A stretch of DNA of 64,000 bases, taken from NCBI RefSeq assembly GCF_034262375.1, contig NZ_CP139558.1, positions 6,572,001 through 6,636,000 on the forward strand, written 5' to 3'. Source of the stretch: Mucilaginibacter sabulilitoris (GTDB taxonomy: Bacteria > Bacteroidota > Bacteroidia > Sphingobacteriales > Sphingobacteriaceae). The notes below the pieces were generated by a model. That model made no database searches. It saw only the letters and a list, made by a program, of their open reading frames with translations, and was not told the DNA's origin. A program made the translations under genes and the position numbers. This document shows, piece by piece, positions 43,749-54,279 of this stretch (the stretch's first letter is position 1; every line of letters begins with the position of its first letter).

Positions 43749-44447
43749 CTATTTTTCTTTCACCACTTTGATATCCCGGAAAAAAGCATCCGTGCCGGCA
43801 TCCACCCAAAGGCCGATAGCGCCGCTGTTGGATGCACCCAACTTCAGGTCGTTAACGATCAGGACGGGCTGCGGTTGATCGTTCAGGTAAAGTTTAGCCT
43901 GGGCATCCCTGACCACGATCTTCATTTTGATCCACTCGTTAAGCCCCATGTCGGCATAGGATTCATATTGTCCCGCAGCTTCTTTTCGAAGCCTGTCGAA
44001 CTTATGATCAGGATAAGAGAAATATTGCGTGGAATGGTTCCTGCGAAGTTGGTCCTCCGCCCTTCCGTTGGTAGGCCTGATATAAATGGATTCAAACCGG
44101 CTGTTGTCCTGGCTGATCCGGAAGGCTAACCCGATAAAGCCCCTTGCATAACCCTCCGCGGCGGGCAGCAGCCGGCTCAACAGCTTGACCTCAATGGTCC
44201 CGTTGCGGAAATCACCGGTGTTGCTCAGCCGTACGAACGTGGGAATGTCAGCGCCTTTGATCGTGGTGTCCCTGCTTACGTTCACCGCTTTTCTGCCGCC
44301 GATGCTGGTGACCGACATCTTCACCGATACGGGTTTCAGGCCATAATTTTCAAAATTGGTATTCTGCGCGAATAAGCGGCAGCAAGAAGATAATAACCAT
44401 ATACTGATGATCGCGCCGCGTAAGAGGGGGAAATTTGATGAAAACAT
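43749..44447 (-). CDS. Secreted concanavalin-like (DUF1080-like) protein
   Basis: About 232 residues from the ATG at 44447 (MFSSNFPLLRGAIISIWLL), with a signal peptide ending RLFAQN. The frame opens further upstream into the preceding gene but that part is not protein-like. The mature part reads as a lectin/concanavalin beta-sandwich: NGTIEVKLLSRLLP, GFIGLAFRISQDNSRFESIY, NEWIKMKIVVRDAQAKLYLN, GAIGLWVDAGTDAFFRDIKV. No catalytic motif is obvious, so glycan binding or weak similarity to DUF1080 hydrolases are both possible. It starts 24 bases after the stop of the 1226-residue fusion gene and is probably cotranscribed with it. Confidence 0.8.
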   Translation of the reverse strand: MFSSNFPLLRGAIISIWLLSSCCRLFAQNTNFENYGLKPVSVKMSVTSIGGRKAVNVSRDTTIKGADIPTFVRLSNTGDFRNGTIEVKLLSRLLPAAEGYARGFIGLAFRISQDNSRFESIYIRPTNGRAEDQLRRNHSTQYFSYPDHKFDRLRKEAAGQYESYADMGLNEWIKMKIVVRDAQAKLYLNDQPQPVLIVNDLKLGASNSGAIGLWVDAGTDAFFRDIKVVKEK

Positions 44448-44470: not shown

Positions 44471-47400
44471 TTATTCGGTCCTGAGACTCTTTGCGGGATT
44501 GGCAACCGCCGTGCGCACCGTTTGGAAACCAATCACCAGCAATGCAATAATCAGTGATAGCAAACCTGCTGATGCAAATATCCACCAGCTGATATGGACA
44601 CGATAAGCAAAATCCTGCAGCCAGACATGCATGATATACCAGGCAACAGGTGAAGCGATAATGATCGCGAGCAGTACCAGCCTGATAAAATCTTTCGAAA
44701 GCAGCAACACGATACCTGGTACGGAAGCGCCCAGCACTTTTCGTATGCCGACCTCCTTGGTACGCTGCATCGCAGTGAGTAACGATAACCCGGATAAACC
44801 CAGGCAGGCGATCAATATAGCCAACGCCGCGAACAGGCCGAATACTTTGCCGAACAGGTAATCGTTACTGTATTGTCTGTTGAACTTTTCGTCAAGGAAA
44901 TAGTAATCAAAAACATTCTCCGGGAAATAGCGGTCATATAGTTTCCGGATGTCTTTAATAACCGTAGCCATATGTTGCGGGTCCACTTTTACAGAGAACT
45001 GGGTGAAGTGACCCGGCAGCGTCGGCAACAGCAACACCGGTTCGATCCCGGCCCTCAAGGATTGCTGATGAAAATCAGCCACCACGCCAATGATATACCA
45101 GGTGCGGCCCGATGCCATTACAGATTTACCGATGGCTTCCTGCGGCGATTGAAAATGCAGTTGTCGCAATGCGGTTACGTTGATGATAAAGTTGTGCACT
45201 TTGGTGAGGTCTTCATGGTAATCCAATGGAGAAAAGTTCCTGCCCGCCAGCAATTTCATTTGGTACAGGTTGATGAAATGCGTATCCACACCCATGGTCG
45301 CCATGGTCGATTTGCTTTTTATTGGAATATCCGTGCGGTCCACGTCGCTGATCTTGTCCAGTTCCTGCCCCGGTATCCGGCCCGAAGCCGCGGCGCCTTT
45401 TACGTAGGCCAACTGCTGTGCTGCCTGGATAAATTCATGCACGTTGTTCATGAATGCAGCGCCCGGATTACTCAGTACCGGCTTACGCAGCACCATCATC
45501 TGGTCCATATTGTAGCCCATGTATTGGCCGGTCATAAACCGGAGTTGCCTGTATATCACCAAAGAGCCGATGATCAGCAGTATGCTGATGGCGAATTGCG
45601 CAGTAACCAGGCTTTTCCTCAAGAACACACCGGTTACAGAATGTGCAAACGTTCCCCGCAGGACTTTCAGGGGATTGTAACCGGAGAGTATGAATGCCGG
45701 GTAGAAACCGGAAAAGAAAATGCCGGCGACCGTAAATAAGGCGAACAGGATGGTAATCGCTGCCTGCTTTGAGAACAGCATAGCCATCGAAAGGTTGCGA
45801 TTGACGAGTTGATTAAATTCACTTTGCAGTAACCATGCAAAGAAAACCGCTATGATGATGGCCACCAGGTTAACTAACAGCGCCTCGGTGAGAAACTGCT
45901 TGATCAGTTGCATCCTTGATGCGCCCGTAACTTTTCTGATGCCTACTTCTTTTGCCCTTTCCAGCGACCGGGCGGTGGCTAAATTGATATAGTTCACCCA
46001 GGCCAGGACCAGTATAAAAAAAGCGATCACCAGCAGGCTCCATACAATGCGGTAACTGCCCGTTCTACCGATCTCATATTCAAAGTCGGAATAGAGATAG
46101 GCTTTTCTTAAAGGCTGCAGGTAAAACACATCCCTTGTGCCGGCAGCCGCGGCTTTGGGAAAATATCTGGTGTTCAATGCGGCAAATTTCCGTTCGACCG
46201 TTTGTGGATCGGCGCCTTTCCTCAACTGGATATATTGCCAGAAAGAAGGTTGCGTAAAATCATAATCGGCCACTGTGTACCTGTTGTTGCCATTGTTGCT
46301 GTAGAGTGAATTGTAAGAGATCAGAAGATCGAAATGCAGCTGTGAACGATCTGGTACATCCTTACATATACCTGTTATTTTATAAGGGAGGGAATCCGTA
46401 TCGAATACCATTACCTGTCCAAGCAATGATCGCGGTTCTTTTACGCCCAATTGCTCCCTGGCCATTTTTTCCGAAATGATTATGCTGTTGGGTTCCAGTA
46501 AAGCGGTCTTTTGGTCACCTGCCAGCAGTGGGTAGGTAAACATGGAAAGAAAGGACGCATCCACCGCAATGGCGCGCTGATCGGCTATTTTTTTATCCGA
46601 CCAGGAAATAACCTCTACCCGGTAAGGGGTCACGCGGCAATAAGCTTCCACTTCGGGTAGGTCCTGTTTCATGGCCCTCCCAATTCCGGAATAAGTCATG
46701 GCGCTGTGCTGTACCAGTGAACCCTGCTGGTAACGGTCGTCCACCACCCGGTACAGGTTATCCAGATTTTTGTGAAAACGGTCAACATTGAGCTCCGTGC
46801 TCACATATTGAATGATCAGGATACAGGCGCATAGCCCGATAGCAAGCCCGGTAATAGAAATAAATGAAAAGAACCGGTGTTTGACCAGGTTGCGCCAGGC
46901 GGTTTTTAAATAATTCCGAAACATATAATTGCGGTTTGATTGCTCTTCCAACCACTTATGCGTGGTTTCCTGGTTCGAAATTACCGCTGCAAACCGGGGA
47001 TGACGCCCCAAATTAGAAAATGGTCGCTCTTTTTTTAGCCCCCTTTTATATTCTGCTGGATTTTTCCCTGTCATTTGCCGGAAAGTACGGTTAAAGGTCG
47101 TTTTCGAATTGAAGCCCGATTCGTAGGCGATGCCCAGGAGCGTGATATGATCATAAGCCGGGTCCTGTATCTTTAAGATGACCTCCCTAATGCGGTATTC
47201 ATTGATAAAGTCATTGAAATTTTTTTTGAGCGCTGTGTTAATGATCCTGGATAATTCGTGGGGCGGGATATCCAGTTCATCAGCCAATGAGCTAACGCTG
47301 AGTTCCGGGTCTCGGTAATACCGGTTGGCCTGCATTGCTTTTTTGAGCCAGCTACCTTTTTCCCTCTGTTCCGTCGTGAGCGGTGGTTTAGGCGCAGCAG

Positions 47401-48151
47401 GCGGTTGGACCATCCATCCGGCATGCGGCCGTAAAAAGGCTGCCGCTGCAGTCCATATAATGATCACAGCGAAAAAGATATAAAAGGGATAATAAACATG
47501 TACACCCAATTGACTGCGATAACCAAGATAATCAACCACGGCAAAACTTATCCATAGTAGCCACAACAAAGCAGTAGCCGCCAGCAAGCGGCGCAGCCAC
47601 CTGAATTCAAGACGGGACCGGTCCATCAGCACAGGCTGCAACCGGCGGTAAAAGTGTTCGATGAGCTTATGAGATCGGTACAGGTAGGTGATGATCGAAA
47701 TGAATATGAGCAGTTGTAATACCGGGTTCAACTGCTGAAAGATCAGCGTAGTATAAGTTGCCACGCCTGTTCGGGTAACTTCTCTGGCCTCCAATGCCAG
47801 GGCGCCCTGTTCGAGCAGCAGCGGGATAAAATGCAGCAGGTCCTTCCACCTGAATTGATATGCCGGCCGCGTTATTTTCAGGACATAAAAATAGATCAGG
47901 GGCCCAAGTGCCAGCAAGAACTGCATTGGCAGCCGGTCCCAGCCGGGCAGGTAAGTTTCCAGCCGGATGTCAATGGCCAATACCTGCATCATCCATAAGA
48001 TCATGGTGAGCAGCGCCAACGCGAGAAACCGGTTTGCGGCACGATTGACACTTTTGACGAATGCTAATAACACGGCAAAATTAAGCCCGATGAATATCAT
48101 TCCGAAAAAGAACAGATCGTAAACGGTGATATGGAATGTATATGAATTCAA
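44471..48151 (-). CDS. Fusion: 7TM domain + AraC DNA-binding domain + MacB/FtsX permease
   Basis: 1226 residues in one frame. Residues 1-245: about seven hydrophobic helices (YDLFFFGMIFIGLNFAVLL onward), a membrane module found on some AraC regulators of this phylum. Residues about 280-372: AraC double helix-turn-helix (LSVSSLADELDIPPHELSRI; ITLLGIAYESGFNSKTTFN; FRQMTGKNPAEYKRG). After a roughly 37-residue linker, residue 410 begins MFRNYLKTAWRNLVKHRFFS, the exact usual start of stand-alone MacB/FtsX-type permeases, followed by two periplasmic MacB-PCD domains and two FtsX domains with EVGIRKVTGAS and EVGIRKVLGAS motifs. No ATPase gene is near. The Met at 46924 could be a second start, giving two proteins. 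Confidence 0.88.
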   Translation of the reverse strand: MNSYTFHITVYDLFFFGMIFIGLNFAVLLAFVKSVNRAANRFLALALLTMILWMMQVLAIDIRLETYLPGWDRLPMQFLLALGPLIYFYVLKITRPAYQFRWKDLLHFIPLLLEQGALALEAREVTRTGVATYTTLIFQQLNPVLQLLIFISIITYLYRSHKLIEHFYRRLQPVLMDRSRLEFRWLRRLLAATALLWLLWISFAVVDYLGYRSQLGVHVYYPFYIFFAVIIIWTAAAAFLRPHAGWMVQPPAAPKPPLTTEQREKGSWLKKAMQANRYYRDPELSVSSLADELDIPPHELSRIINTALKKNFNDFINEYRIREVILKIQDPAYDHITLLGIAYESGFNSKTTFNRTFRQMTGKNPAEYKRGLKKERPFSNLGRHPRFAAVISNQETTHKWLEEQSNRNYMFRNYLKTAWRNLVKHRFFSFISITGLAIGLCACILIIQYVSTELNVDRFHKNLDNLYRVVDDRYQQGSLVQHSAMTYSGIGRAMKQDLPEVEAYCRVTPYRVEVISWSDKKIADQRAIAVDASFLSMFTYPLLAGDQKTALLEPNSIIISEKMAREQLGVKEPRSLLGQVMVFDTDSLPYKITGICKDVPDRSQLHFDLLISYNSLYSNNGNNRYTVADYDFTQPSFWQYIQLRKGADPQTVERKFAALNTRYFPKAAAAGTRDVFYLQPLRKAYLYSDFEYEIGRTGSYRIVWSLLVIAFFILVLAWVNYINLATARSLERAKEVGIRKVTGASRMQLIKQFLTEALLVNLVAIIIAVFFAWLLQSEFNQLVNRNLSMAMLFSKQAAITILFALFTVAGIFFSGFYPAFILSGYNPLKVLRGTFAHSVTGVFLRKSLVTAQFAISILLIIGSLVIYRQLRFMTGQYMGYNMDQMMVLRKPVLSNPGAAFMNNVHEFIQAAQQLAYVKGAAASGRIPGQELDKISDVDRTDIPIKSKSTMATMGVDTHFINLYQMKLLAGRNFSPLDYHEDLTKVHNFIINVTALRQLHFQSPQEAIGKSVMASGRTWYIIGVVADFHQQSLRAGIEPVLLLPTLPGHFTQFSVKVDPQHMATVIKDIRKLYDRYFPENVFDYYFLDEKFNRQYSNDYLFGKVFGLFAALAILIACLGLSGLSLLTAMQRTKEVGIRKVLGASVPGIVLLLSKDFIRLVLLAIIIASPVAWYIMHVWLQDFAYRVHISWWIFASAGLLSLIIALLVIGFQTVRTAVANPAKSLRTE

Positions 48152-48178
48152 GTAAAATTAATAGCTCAATGGCTGTTC

Positions 48179-48278
48179 CAAATCTATAAAATGTTAATTT
48201 ATAAAACCTTAACTGAAAATGGAAATAAATGGTGTACCGGAACCGGACGAAGGAATGTCCGGTTTTGAAAACCGGACA
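48179..48278 (-). promoter_or_regulatory. Promoter and inverted repeat upstream of the fusion gene
   Basis: On the minus strand TAGATTTG (48186-48179) is a good -7 element 28 bases before the start codon, with TTTT at -33 spacing. Further upstream an 11-base perfect inverted repeat, TGTCCGGTTTT-G-AAAACCGGACA (48256-48278), and an extra GTCCGG/CCGGA copy at 48239-48247 are candidate sites for an activator such as the fused AraC domain. Confidence 0.55.
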
Positions 48279-51245: not shown

Positions 51246-52769
51246 ATGATTCAGAAATTTCTTGACATTTCATTAAAAAAGGGCGGAAAACATCGTCCAT
51301 TATATCAGCAGTTAGAAGCGGAAATTATTCAGTTGATCTGTCGTGGGACTTTGAAACCCGGGCAGCTTCTCCCATCTTCGAGAGAACTGGCACAAAGCCT
51401 GAAACTTAGTCGTAAAACAGTGGTGGCTACCTACGACGAGTTGAATGCGCAGGGCTGGGTGGAAACCTGGGACAGAAGTGGCGTTTATGTTTCCGATCAT
51501 CTACCAGACACTACAGATCGCGTGATCAAAGAGGATAGCGAAAAATTGACACAAAACAGCCAACCGGGTTATCTTTTGATCATCAAACAAGCTGATGAAC
51601 CAATCGCTACAAATCCAAATATAGATAACGATACGCCGGGAGCGACAGCACCACGCTACAGGATCGATGACGGTTTTCCTGATCCCAGGATAGCGCCTAT
51701 CGAGCAGATAATCCGGGAGTTTAGAAGATTCGGGAAGGGCCACTTAACAAATCGATTGCTCATGTATGGCCCGGAGCAGGGCTCCTATCGTCTCCGGGGC
51801 GAACTCGCTCAGTTTTTAAACCGGACCAGAGGGCTTAAGGTCACTGAAAGAGAAATACTCATCACTAAGGGGACGCAAATGGCCATCTATCTGACCGCGC
51901 AGGTTCTTATCCGCCCCGGAGACACCGTATTTGTACCCGAACCCGGCTATAGGGATGCGAATCAGGCCTTTAAATTGGCGGGAGCCAACCTGGTATTCAT
52001 TCCGGTGGATAAAGAAGGAATGGACGTAGACCGGATCGAACAATTATGTAAAAAGAAGACACCCAGAATGATCTATATTATCCCGCATCACCATCGGCCC
52101 ACTACAGTTACCCTGAGCGCAGAGCGGCGCATGCGATTGATGAATCTGGCCTCCAAATACAGATTTGCATTGCTTGAAGATGATTATGATTTTGATTATC
52201 ACTTTACAAGCGATCCGCTTTTTCCTTTAGCAAGTATGGATACGGGTAGACATGTTATTTATGCGGGTTCCTTTTGTAAAAGTATTGCGCCCGGTATCCG
52301 GATCGGTTTTATGGTCGCCCCGGAAGCGGTTATAAACGAAGCTGGCGCGATCCGCAAATTAATTGACCGGCAAGGTGAACGGTTATTGGAAGAGGCAACT
52401 GCTGAACTTTTGAGCACGGGTGAAATTTCCCGGCATCTTAAAAAGTCGCACAAGATCTATCAGGAGCGGTTAGAAAACACTTGCCGCTTGCTTCAGGAAC
52501 AATTGGGTGAATATTTAACGTTTGACAGGCCCAACGGTGGTTTAGCTATTTGGGCAGCCTACAGAAAGCATATCAATGCCGGAACAGTTGCCCTGAATGC
52601 GGGAAAGCTGGGACTAAATATCAGCGACGGCAGTAATTATTTTTTTCAGCCCGATATTGCTATGTCAAATGATTTCATACGCATAGGTTTTTGCTCTCTA
52701 AACGAAACAGAAATGGCCGGTGCTATTGGTATATGGAAACAGGCGCTATCTTCGTTTGCTAAAAAATAA
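51246..52769 (+). CDS. MocR-type GntR regulator with aminotransferase domain (copy 1)
   Basis: 507 residues. An N-terminal GntR winged helix-turn-helix (residues about 15-82: YQQLEAEIIQLICRGTLKPG, LLPSSRELAQSLKLSRKTVV) is joined by a linker to a fold-type I aminotransferase domain (ITKGTQMAIYLTAQVLIRPG, LEDDYDFDYHF, and the PLP Lys in GSFCKSIAPGIRIGF near residue 342). Such proteins use PLP as a sensor cofactor. Divergent from the nitroreductase group, which it probably controls. It ends facing its paralogue at 52807. Confidence 0.92.
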   Translation: MIQKFLDISLKKGGKHRPLYQQLEAEIIQLICRGTLKPGQLLPSSRELAQSLKLSRKTVVATYDELNAQGWVETWDRSGVYVSDHLPDTTDRVIKEDSEKLTQNSQPGYLLIIKQADEPIATNPNIDNDTPGATAPRYRIDDGFPDPRIAPIEQIIREFRRFGKGHLTNRLLMYGPEQGSYRLRGELAQFLNRTRGLKVTEREILITKGTQMAIYLTAQVLIRPGDTVFVPEPGYRDANQAFKLAGANLVFIPVDKEGMDVDRIEQLCKKKTPRMIYIIPHHHRPTTVTLSAERRMRLMNLASKYRFALLEDDYDFDYHFTSDPLFPLASMDTGRHVIYAGSFCKSIAPGIRIGFMVAPEAVINEAGAIRKLIDRQGERLLEEATAELLSTGEISRHLKKSHKIYQERLENTCRLLQEQLGEYLTFDRPNGGLAIWAAYRKHINAGTVALNAGKLGLNISDGSNYFFQPDIAMSNDFIRIGFCSLNETEMAGAIGIWKQALSSFAKK

Positions 52770-52806: not shown

Positions 52807-54279
52807 TTATTTTGCAAATGTGATCTTTTTAAGAACATCGACAGCAAATTCTAACTCCTTTTCATTTAACGAAGCAAATCCAAAACGAATAGCATCATGT
52901 GTTAAATCGCTGCTTTTGAAATAAGGCATTCCGATGAGTTGTAATCCTAAAGAACTTGCTTTATTAACGATGTTGGCTACCTGGTAATTCTCCTTAAACT
53001 TTAACCATAACGCCATGCCTCCCTGCGGCTTTTTAAATTCTACCAGATGGTTAAGTTCACTATTAATCAAGTTTGAAGCAGAGTCGCATCTGTATTCATA
53101 CAGCTTGTTCGCTTTCATGATAAATCTTGAAAACTCGCCATTCTCCATAAGTGATGCTATTGTTCCTTCCATCAATGCATCGCCCCTTATATCAATTAAC
53201 ATTTTTAATTTAACAGCGCTGTGCAAAAAATTGGGTGTTGAAATCATGTAGCCAAGCCTAAAATTAGATCCAAGCACCTTTGTAAGCGAACCTATGTAAA
53301 TCACGTTGCCGTCATGAGCCCCGCTGGCTAGCGGTAAATACGGGCTGTACTGATATTGAAAATCGTAATCATAATCATCCTCAATTACAGCCAGCTGGTG
53401 TATTCTGATCAATTCCAGGAGCTTGGCCCTGCGCGTGGAGCTTAATGTAACCGTTGTCGGATGATGGTGATGCGGAATAATGTATAATAATTTTATGTTA
53501 TTTTTTTCCAAAGCATCTGCTATGGCGTCAACATCAGCACCTTCATCATCTACCGGCACAGTTATTAGTTGAGCGCCAAGCTGCATGAAAACAGCATCCG
53601 CTAAAAAAAAGTTCGGGCTGGTTACCAAAACCTTATCGCCAGCTTTTATGATTAGTGATGCTGCCAGGTAAATGGCCATTTGCGCCCCCCGTGTAATCAT
53701 CAGATTTCCCTGCTCAATGTTCAGTCCCCGTGTATCATTCAGAAATGATGACAATGCCTCTTTAATAACCGGGCTCCCATCAATGTTCCAGGTTGCTGTA
53801 GATTTTTTTAATGTTTGGTGAGTAAGTAGTCTCCTGTATTCTTGTGAAACCCTTTCAACCGGAAATATATTAACGTCAGGGAAACCATCATCTACAATAA
53901 CTTTAAATCCGGCAGCTATTTTGGGGAAGGATGGCAGATGCTCCAGTTTATCATAGATAATCGCTGATTCAGCCTTATAACTTGATTTGGATTTACTGGC
54001 ATAGGTCCGGGGCTTTATAATAGGTAAGAGCGTAGATACCCGATACTCTTTCCTTTCTTTACTAATGAGCCAATCTTCTGCGATAAGTGTGTTATATGCG
54101 GCCATGATGGTTTTACGGTGCAAACCCAGATCTGCCGCCAGCAGGCGTGTACTGGGTAATTGCATATCGGGCAGTAATATTCCTTTTTGAATTAACAACA
54201 CAAGCTGTGAGGCAATTTGCTTGAACACAGCTTCCGGACTGTTTTTATCGATATTTAATAGGGTTTTAAAAGGAAGCAT
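52807..54279 (-). CDS. MocR-type GntR regulator with aminotransferase domain (copy 2)
   Basis: 490 residues, same architecture as its convergent neighbour. GntR domain with FKQIASQLVLLIQKGILLPD and LPSTRLLAADLGLHRKTIMA; aminotransferase domain with ITRGAQMAIYLAASLIIKAG, IIPHHHHPTTVTLSSTRR, IEDDYDYDFQYQ and the PLP Lys in GSLTKVLGSNFRLGY near residue 333. The blocks are so alike that the two genes must be paralogues. Divergent from the azoreductase gene at 54485, with a palindrome in between. Confidence 0.92.
   Translation of the reverse strand: MLPFKTLLNIDKNSPEAVFKQIASQLVLLIQKGILLPDMQLPSTRLLAADLGLHRKTIMAAYNTLIAEDWLISKERKEYRVSTLLPIIKPRTYASKSKSSYKAESAIIYDKLEHLPSFPKIAAGFKVIVDDGFPDVNIFPVERVSQEYRRLLTHQTLKKSTATWNIDGSPVIKEALSSFLNDTRGLNIEQGNLMITRGAQMAIYLAASLIIKAGDKVLVTSPNFFLADAVFMQLGAQLITVPVDDEGADVDAIADALEKNNIKLLYIIPHHHHPTTVTLSSTRRAKLLELIRIHQLAVIEDDYDYDFQYQYSPYLPLASGAHDGNVIYIGSLTKVLGSNFRLGYMISTPNFLHSAVKLKMLIDIRGDALMEGTIASLMENGEFSRFIMKANKLYEYRCDSASNLINSELNHLVEFKKPQGGMALWLKFKENYQVANIVNKASSLGLQLIGMPYFKSSDLTHDAIRFGFASLNEKELEFAVDVLKKITFAK

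Follow-up and report, generated by a model that had tools for sequence, protein, structure and literature searches.

A predicted membrane-held AraC regulator fused in frame to re-paired type VII ABC permeases in Mucilaginibacter sabulilitoris and other Bacteroidota

Why should a membrane domain, a DNA-binding domain, and a complete ABC permease share one polypeptide? The question is raised by a single reading frame of Mucilaginibacter sabulilitoris, whose genus is one of soil bacteria; the frame lies in a window of 64,000 nucleotides (nt; contig NZ_CP139558.1, positions 6,572,001 to 6,636,000; coordinates below are those of the window). The frame has 1226 codons and zero internal stops, as a sequence-only reading of this DNA had claimed without naming a strand. 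It runs on the minus strand from a TTG codon at 48151 to 44471. It joins a seven-helix (7TM) and AraC module (the N half) to a type VII ABC permease (the C half). We propose that the fusion is a shufflable chimeric membrane transcription factor coupled in cis to its permease, a reading that, signalling included, we regard as evenly poised between right and wrong. Its best-founded part comes from comparison of homologues, by which the two modules are repeatedly re-paired at or near the permease start codon, with the joint frame kept open.

Pfam and AlphaFold2 agree with the layout first suggested for this frame, namely, helices, an AraC domain, and a permease from residue 410. The AlphaFold2 model of residues 1-375 (mean predicted local distance difference test score [pLDDT], 79.9) has an AraC domain and seven long helices at residues 10-31, 37-61, 78-94, 102-128, 136-170, 184-208, and 217-240, which make up the membrane domain (residues 10-240, 47432..48124, minus strand, as are all features of the fusion gene). 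The AraC double helix-turn-helix (HTH_18, residues 289-370, 47042..47287) passes the AraC family profile threshold with 50.8 bits against a cut-off of 33.6, and its fold matches AraC-type DNA-binding domains in the PDB (best E value, 1.7e-3). PDB matches of the seven-helix domain are weak and G-protein-coupled receptor-like, with none below E 0.001, and we leave them uninterpreted. The permease half (residues 410-1226, 44474..46924) contains two MacB_PCD and two FtsX stretches (107.9 bits with a cut-off of 27 and 66.5 bits with a cut-off of 25.5, respectively) and its model (pLDDT, 82.5) shows eight long helices in the membrane and two domains outside it. A linker (codons 373-409, 46925..47035) connects the modules, and the Met in MFRNYLKTAWRNL occupies position 410 (codon 46924-46922), at once the junction codon and a possible internal start.

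A frame of this kind could be an artefact in which two genes are united through an overlooked stop or a frameshift, and both halves do resemble complete stand-alone proteins. That explanation, to which we give next to no credence, is refuted by intact homologues: there are 122, comprising 55 in set 1 and, among the matches listed, 67 in set 2 (both defined below), and some are in single-contig genomes (G000 and G013). In all 122, a membrane-held, predicted DNA-binding domain adjoins a permease in one open frame, and there are also broken copies. Set 1 derives from a search with the N half (E ≤ 1e-40) of 41 genomes, those being the window's own, 24 others of the genus, and 16 of the class. The N half is present in 16, every one of the genus; 15 of these hold the 55 intact fusions, and the sixteenth has an N half without a permease. 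The domain order that the sequence-only reading had proposed to look for elsewhere is thus found throughout set 1 and in at least 67 further genes. At L088:1217-2416 (genome G007), an N half and the first part of the linker are present with no permease found behind them. The window's own genome, a single 7.55 Mb contig, contributes eight of the intact 7TM-AraC-permease genes and also carries one frame-broken copy (L044) and two short remnants of the 7TM part of the N half, which are probably dead copies (L048:4948-5355, 72% identity, and L049:4706-5095, 56% identity). Set 1 genomes have four frame-broken copies in total (L044, L057, L069, and L087), and further copies are truncated where a contig or a locus ends. 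On contigs 11 and 29 of genome G015 (L058-L060), fusion genes with differing permease halves stand in rows of five, one of these contigs opening inside a sixth.

Family-level scanning (E ≤ 1e-45) finds the N half in 26 of 251 genomes, which represent 5 of the 25 genera. In named genomes at least 76 loci match, mostly from Mucilaginibacter or Bacteroidetes metagenome-assembled genomes (MAGs), and the matches listed also include Parapedobacter, Olivibacter, Chitinophaga rupis, and one Chitinophagales MAG. These loci hold at least 81 intact fusions, at least 67 of them non-identical to set 1 (set 2), and, among the matches listed, seven N halves with an incomplete permease that are not flagged as cut off. 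An unannotated fusion in two frames, with its linker kept (47 bits), lies on a plasmid of Spirosoma sp. KNUC1025 (L216:4501-7953), and its presence in another order suggests horizontal spread. By these comparisons the fusion is real and modular, and it is found in Sphingobacteriales, in Chitinophagales, and as a broken plasmid copy in Cytophagales.

N-half relatives outside the genus are mostly stand-alone 7TM-AraC proteins. In a phylum scan (E ≤ 1e-30, with up to four candidates per genome scored), 32 of 395 genomes match the N half. Outside the genus there are 34 such places: 33 hold open frames of 371-514 residues, and the last a frame of 937 residues with an internal stop. The nearest of these Bacteroidota regulators (two genomes of the class; 40-42% identity) resemble the N half but are ∼375 residues long and have no attached permease. 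No permease of the fusion family was seen near the stand-alone genes at the 12 of 34 loci examined, and an ancestral operon of 7TM-AraC and permease genes was rejected, none being present at those 12 loci.

Have the two halves travelled together? In a FastTree tree of the 55 permease halves of set 1 and 44 rows labelled stand-alone (43 once one truncated fusion is set aside), the last common node of the fusion permeases spans all 99 rows. Within the window's own genome, the eight fusions fall in eight places among 38 stand-alone permeases, with eight changes, at least six by well-supported branches, and a mean of 7.5 for shuffled labels; a single fusion clade is rejected (log-likelihood difference, 1480; approximately unbiased test, p-AU 1e-6; own-genome rows, quick tree, LG+G4). 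Identities of the N and C halves are poorly correlated over the 1485 pairs of set 1 (Spearman, 0.14). Distance matrices correlate at 0.78 within the N half and 0.97 within the C half versus 0.25 between them in set 1, and at 0.57, 0.95, and 0.24, respectively, in set 2. The break can be located: sliding 60-residue windows give a minimum divergence correlation of 0.29 at residue 411 in set 1 and minima of 0.24 and 0.25 at residues 421 and 411 in set 2. Individual pairs are strongly discordant in either direction (N 79% and C 39%; N 75% and C 29%; C 92% and N 41%), with the switch point of the last lying further upstream, within the AraC domain. Re-pairing at one codon provides a natural chimera series and, at the level of sequence, shows that the halves are modular. 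A statistic asking how often the nearest relative by C is also the nearest by N (10 of 55) was discarded for the poor performance of its own control (13 of 55).

The junction has a second property. Excess synonymous identity in 15-codon windows of set 1 peaks at 0.60 (codons 373-387) and 0.53 (codons 390-404), against a gene-wide mean of 0.12 (standard deviation [SD], 0.09) and a next peak of 0.33 at codons 1-15. In 65 genes of set 2 the peaks are 0.635 (codons 373-387) and 0.575 (codons 391-405), with a mean of 0.153 (SD, 0.127), a whole N half that is raised (0.27), and a next peak of 0.46 at codons 86-100. The linker is the strongest synonymous-site conservation of the gene in both sets, and several of its codons are practically fixed in set 1 (Pro377 CCA 45/46, Ser378 TCT 27/27, Val390 GTA 36/36, and Ser392 TCG 32/33). 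It is nonetheless translated, since its indels are multiples of three and reading stays open through it in all 55 aligned genes. At its end, Met410 is Met in 55 of 55 genes of set 1 and 65 of 65 of set 2, and the residues after it vary (F411 in 84%, position 412 mixed). A nucleotide model of the linker (R1) matches the nine fusion genes of the window's genome and nothing else there at E < 0.1; across the 41 genomes it finds 63 places in 16, the same 16 that hold the N module, and it also matches Chitinophaga, Chitinophagales, Parapedobacter, Olivibacter, and Spirosoma fusions. The exceptions, over 53 loci, are a remnant before a stand-alone permease, one match behind a permease-less N half, and two weak antisense matches. 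The remnant (L072:8791-8878, genome G022; E 6e-4) lacks an N module and lies just 5' of an intact stand-alone permease (8890 onward); the stand-alone permeases fetched from the window's own genome do not carry the linker. Three accounts of the linker were rejected: RNA structure (the consensus fold is without any pairs), rare-codon pausing (the fixed codons mix rare CCA and TCT with common AAA, CGC, and GTA), and a free-standing or mobile element (the R1 matches are confined to N-module genomes among the 41 searched).

These features bear on whether one frame yields two products, the full protein and the permease alone from Met410, with the linker serving as leader or internal promoter, the N module regulating, and the permease half working unfused as well. 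The earlier suggestion of a second start at 46924 gains indirect support here, both from the retention of Met410 in 120 of 120 genes beside variable residues and from the nucleotide conservation just upstream, which peaks in codons 371-409 and drops just after 410. In addition, the linker CTTATAAnTTGG resembles the promoter TTATAAgTTTGG, and the L072 permease follows a linker remnant without any N module. However, a captured stand-alone permease always brings its own ATG, and the residues there probably serve as an amphipathic helix. Moreover, the linker consensus, read by eye, shows neither a sigma54 -12 element nor a TAnnTTTG box with suitable spacing, and the linker is translated. We consider two products somewhat doubtful. 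An ATG is present within eight codons of the expected place in 43 of 43 stand-alone permeases, a weak control for the TTG starts of the fusions because the script sought only Met. On the minus strand of L047 (6144-9032), a permease frame extends ∼149 codons upstream of the usual Met, and this extension has no Pfam match.

Alternatively, the linker could be an operator through which the AraC domain binds its own gene, looping with the promoter, or a recombination site that aids module exchange. The break in co-divergence does fall at the linker end, and in the window's genome the linker and promoter models match nothing other than the fusions up to E 0.1 and 0.04, respectively. But the linker is not repeated in the window's genome, whether at the 3' end of the permease or in other places, the stretch in which promoter and linker agree is short and may reflect chance, and linker identity is no higher within genomes (66.2%) than between them (67.4%), so that there is no sign of homogenisation and gene conversion within genomes was rejected. 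Operator and recombination functions both seem unlikely to us.

The start of the gene is as distinctive as the junction. The start codon of the window fusion (48149..48151), assigned by comparison of homologues, is TTG, as in 46 of the 55 set 1 genes (4 ATG, 2 GTG, and 3 other) and 59 of the 67 of set 2 (3 ATG, 2 GTG, 1 CTG, and two not readable); 31 of the 46 TTG genes have no alternative in-frame start between the upstream stop and the TTG. Ahead of it is a sigma54-like promoter core, TGGAAC-N5-TTG (48167..48180), the first base of which is 29 nt 5' of the start codon. The pattern TGGMAY-N5-TTG occurs 27-31 nt 5' of the start in 76 of 119 fusions, compared with a mean of 0.1 in 20 shuffles and 4 of 480 upstream regions of neighbouring open reading frames. 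A promoter model (R2) recovers eight of the nine fusion genes of the window's genome at E ≤ 0.0052, followed by a match at 0.05, and it also matches the Parapedobacter and Olivibacter fusion genes. By the sigma54 convention, transcripts would start ∼3 nt before the TTG and be nearly leaderless. The genome has one RpoN gene and 17 matches to sigma54 activators, 11 of them strong; with a -24/-12 motif, RpoN, and activators, the sequence fits sigma54 dependence of this predicted promoter. Of four sigma54-like forms tried on the 43 stand-alone permeases, three are near chance (TGGCA-N6-TTG in 2, with 0.25 and at most 2 expected; TGG-N8-TTG in 4, with 2.75 expected; TTGGCA in 5, with 3.45 expected). 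TAnnTTTG, the Bacteroidota housekeeping promoter motif, is present in 38 of 119 fusion upstreams (5.2 expected); it is weaker than the sigma54-like motif and may be a second promoter of the fusion genes.

A constant promoter ahead of changing permeases could mean that the N module is selected mainly as a promoter and targeting cassette, giving its permease a common sigma54 promoter and a hold on the membrane, with the AraC domain regulating its own locus alone and no signal coming from the permease. The same promoter motif in 76 of 119 members with differing permeases would fit, as would the occurrence of the promoter pattern (three or fewer mismatches) only four times in the genome, always before a fusion gene, which in one case is the broken copy, and the result that in none of 22 similar fusion pairs do the two members have a neighbour in common at >45% identity within three genes on each side. 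Promoter capture, however, needs no 370-residue membrane regulator in frame, the AraC domain is the best conserved of the segments compared, and the joint frame stays open. We judge the cassette explanation improbable. Mean conservation falls from 0.79 in the AraC domain through 0.61 in the 7TM domain to 0.51 in the permease, and with the AraC domain thus the best kept, family members may recognise a common DNA site.

What, then, does the permease half contribute? It retains two coupling motifs, of the sort that in this transporter class touch the ATPase. The first, LERAKEVGIRKVTGASR (residues 730-746, 45914..45964), has core positions R, E, G, R, K, and G that are 92-100% conserved among 55 fusions and 93-100% among 43 stand-alone permeases; for the second, MQRTKEVGIRKVLGAS (residues 1128-1143, 44723..44770; core R, K, E, G, R, K, and G), the values are 96-100% and 95-100%. 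Conservation so close to that of stand-alone permeases makes it probable that an ATPase acting in trans drives the permease half. The earlier statement that the window has no ATPase holds, in that none of the 63 ABC_tran matches of the genome (E ≤ 1e-8) lie in its range (6572001-6636000); two of the 63 stand at the ends of a permease array elsewhere in the genome. A partner ATPase elsewhere, which had been proposed as something to look for, is thus likely; its candidates are these matches.

The PDB returns 84 matches to the permease half at E ≤ 0.001 (best, 9ge7), the best solved folds being YbbP, MacB, LolCDE, and BceB, with moderate type VII TM-scores of no more than 0.43 by query length. 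YbbP of Escherichia coli is the closest (E 1e-16, TM-score only 0.41-0.44) and likewise has two permease units and two periplasmic domains in one chain. The fusion model differs in having eight long helices without the two inter-unit helices described in the available part of PMC5985334, and it differs from YbbAP in that its ATPase is not adjacent and a regulator is fused; YbbAP-TesA is treated in PMC12646458. In MacB, according to the available part of PMC5985334, the ATPase domain is attached N-terminally via an amphipathic helix, and helix 2-15 of the permease model (residues 411-424) is at the corresponding place. Two curated NCBIfam families are related. The fusion matches nearly the full profile of the acidobacterial duplicated orphan permeases (ADOP, TIGR03434; 281.3 bits), which are also duplicated and present in many copies per genome, but it falls below the curated cut-off of 622.3 and bears the 7TM-AraC module. 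ADOP genes are sited away from ATPase genes. DarB, the darobactin export permease (NF038008), is also a duplicated permease to which the fusion scores 130.2 bits, far below the cut-off of 700, and no ATPase gene is present in the window.

From these parts we suggest how the fusion may work. By comparison of homologues, the first module comprises the sigma54-like promoter and TTG start (in most members), the seven-helix domain, the AraC domain, and the nucleotide-conserved linker, and the second is one of many differing duplicated MacB/YbbP-type permeases. The AraC domain would occupy the position of the MacB ATPase, at the amphipathic helix preceding the permease's first helix, with a MacB-type ATPase powering the permease half in trans. 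When the permease encounters its substrate (perhaps jointly with the 7TM domain), or when the ATPase drives the permease, the change would be passed in cis to the AraC domain and alter transcription, probably including that of its own gene. Re-pairing would then supply one conserved DNA-reading module with many transport specificities. The signalling step itself is a reasoned guess, with about even chances. Rather doubtful, in our estimate, is an extended form in which combinatorial sensing, by one DNA-reading module re-paired with the permease stock at the conserved junction, is combined with a permease-only second product from each gene; the chimeras would then be 'transceptors' of new specificity, and every gene would encode a sensor as well as a transporter. 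CadC and ToxR are membrane one-component regulators with a DNA-binding domain and a membrane sensor in one chain; the fusion shares this one-chain layout but not their single-helix anchor, and they have no transporter. It would function more like the BceB-BceS sensing pair, in one polypeptide: in BceAB-BceS, a type VII permease informs a transcriptional response to an outside compound (PMC5985334, available part). There the histidine kinase and response regulator are separate, in contrast to the same-chain DNA-binding domain of the fusion, and BceB has one large outer domain rather than two.

Several observations weigh against a chimeric factor that signals from permease to DNA. The N half can work free of a permease, because its closest outside relatives are stand-alone and have no such permease nearby (in 12 of 34 loci). 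The kept coupling motifs could equally mean a plain transporter to which the N module is a mere regulatory appendage, and signalling leaves the nucleotide conservation of the linker unexplained. No companion gene is constant among the 22 largest neighbour groups, the commonest family other than fusions and permeases lying beside 14 of the 122 fusions. Nor is re-pairing complete: a small association between N and C persists in set 1 (Mantel p 0.0005), indicating that a little shared history remains, and some shallow groups hold both halves together (e.g., N 80% with C 91%, and N 82% with C 88%), and pairings therefore last for a while. The promoter is imperfectly tied to the fusion, with the strict motif missing from 43 of 119 upstreams, no match of the promoter model before the Chitinophaga, Chitinophagales MAG, and Spirosoma fusions, and TGGCAY-N5-TT present in 6 of 43 stand-alone permeases (0.45 expected), clearly above chance. 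We also know of no AraC proteins that activate sigma54 promoters.

The surroundings of the fusion genes are variable. Another fusion or permease lies within three genes on either side of 56 of the 122 fusions, and a same-strand downstream gene within 100 nt follows 11 of the 117 that have a downstream gene. Among neighbour groups named by eye, kinase-like proteins accompany 8 of 122 fusions, regulator-like proteins 7, and ABC-F-like ATPases 5; with the commonest such groups at 8 and 7, there is no joint kinase and regulator of the BceABS type. In the window, a secreted gene with a likely ATG at 44447, 23 nt past the fusion stop, matches 3keto-disac_hyd (28.2 bits; cut-off, 26.8), and the two genes are possibly co-transcribed. 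This neighbour had been put forward as a concanavalin-like partner, an idea that the comparison does not support: no similar gene was found when up to three genes on each side of the other 121 fusions were compared, and a secreted DUF1080-like partner was rejected, being beside only the window's own fusion of the 122. A DUF1080 gene near the Spirosoma fusion matches the window's secreted neighbour at only 22.7 bits.

The genome of M. sabulilitoris has ∼50 permease places. At 3.994-4.055 Mb (L089:3643-19901 to L092:1-5129), a run of 20 duplicated permeases is flanked on either side by an ATPase, one of the two accompanied by a sigma54 activator; genes named by eye as encoding a histidine kinase, an adaptor, and a TolC-like protein also occur there, giving a very large MacAB-TolC-like array. 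Elsewhere in the window, two GntR-aminotransferase regulators (MocR-like by eye) converge 3' to 3' at 51246-52769 (plus strand) and 52807-54279 (minus strand).

Full-text literature searches, with subscription journals and preprints outside their coverage, found no paper that describes the fusion, and none describing a constant regulator whose permease is exchanged at a fixed codon, together with a nucleotide-conserved linker and a mostly TTG start. The linker is a testable and unexplained element, and the natural chimera series would be useful for engineering transporter-coupled sensors. Duplicated MacB-like permeases are large, unexplained gene families in Bacteroidota; the accessible part of PMC11573002 counts, in two Dyadobacter genomes, 28 and 33 genes for an 'acidobacterial duplicated orphan permease' of unknown function. 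That duplicated permeases occur naturally fused to a DNA-binding domain suggests that at least some of them report to gene regulation, and finding the DNA site of the fusion is a way by which the compound sensed by such a permease could be learned.

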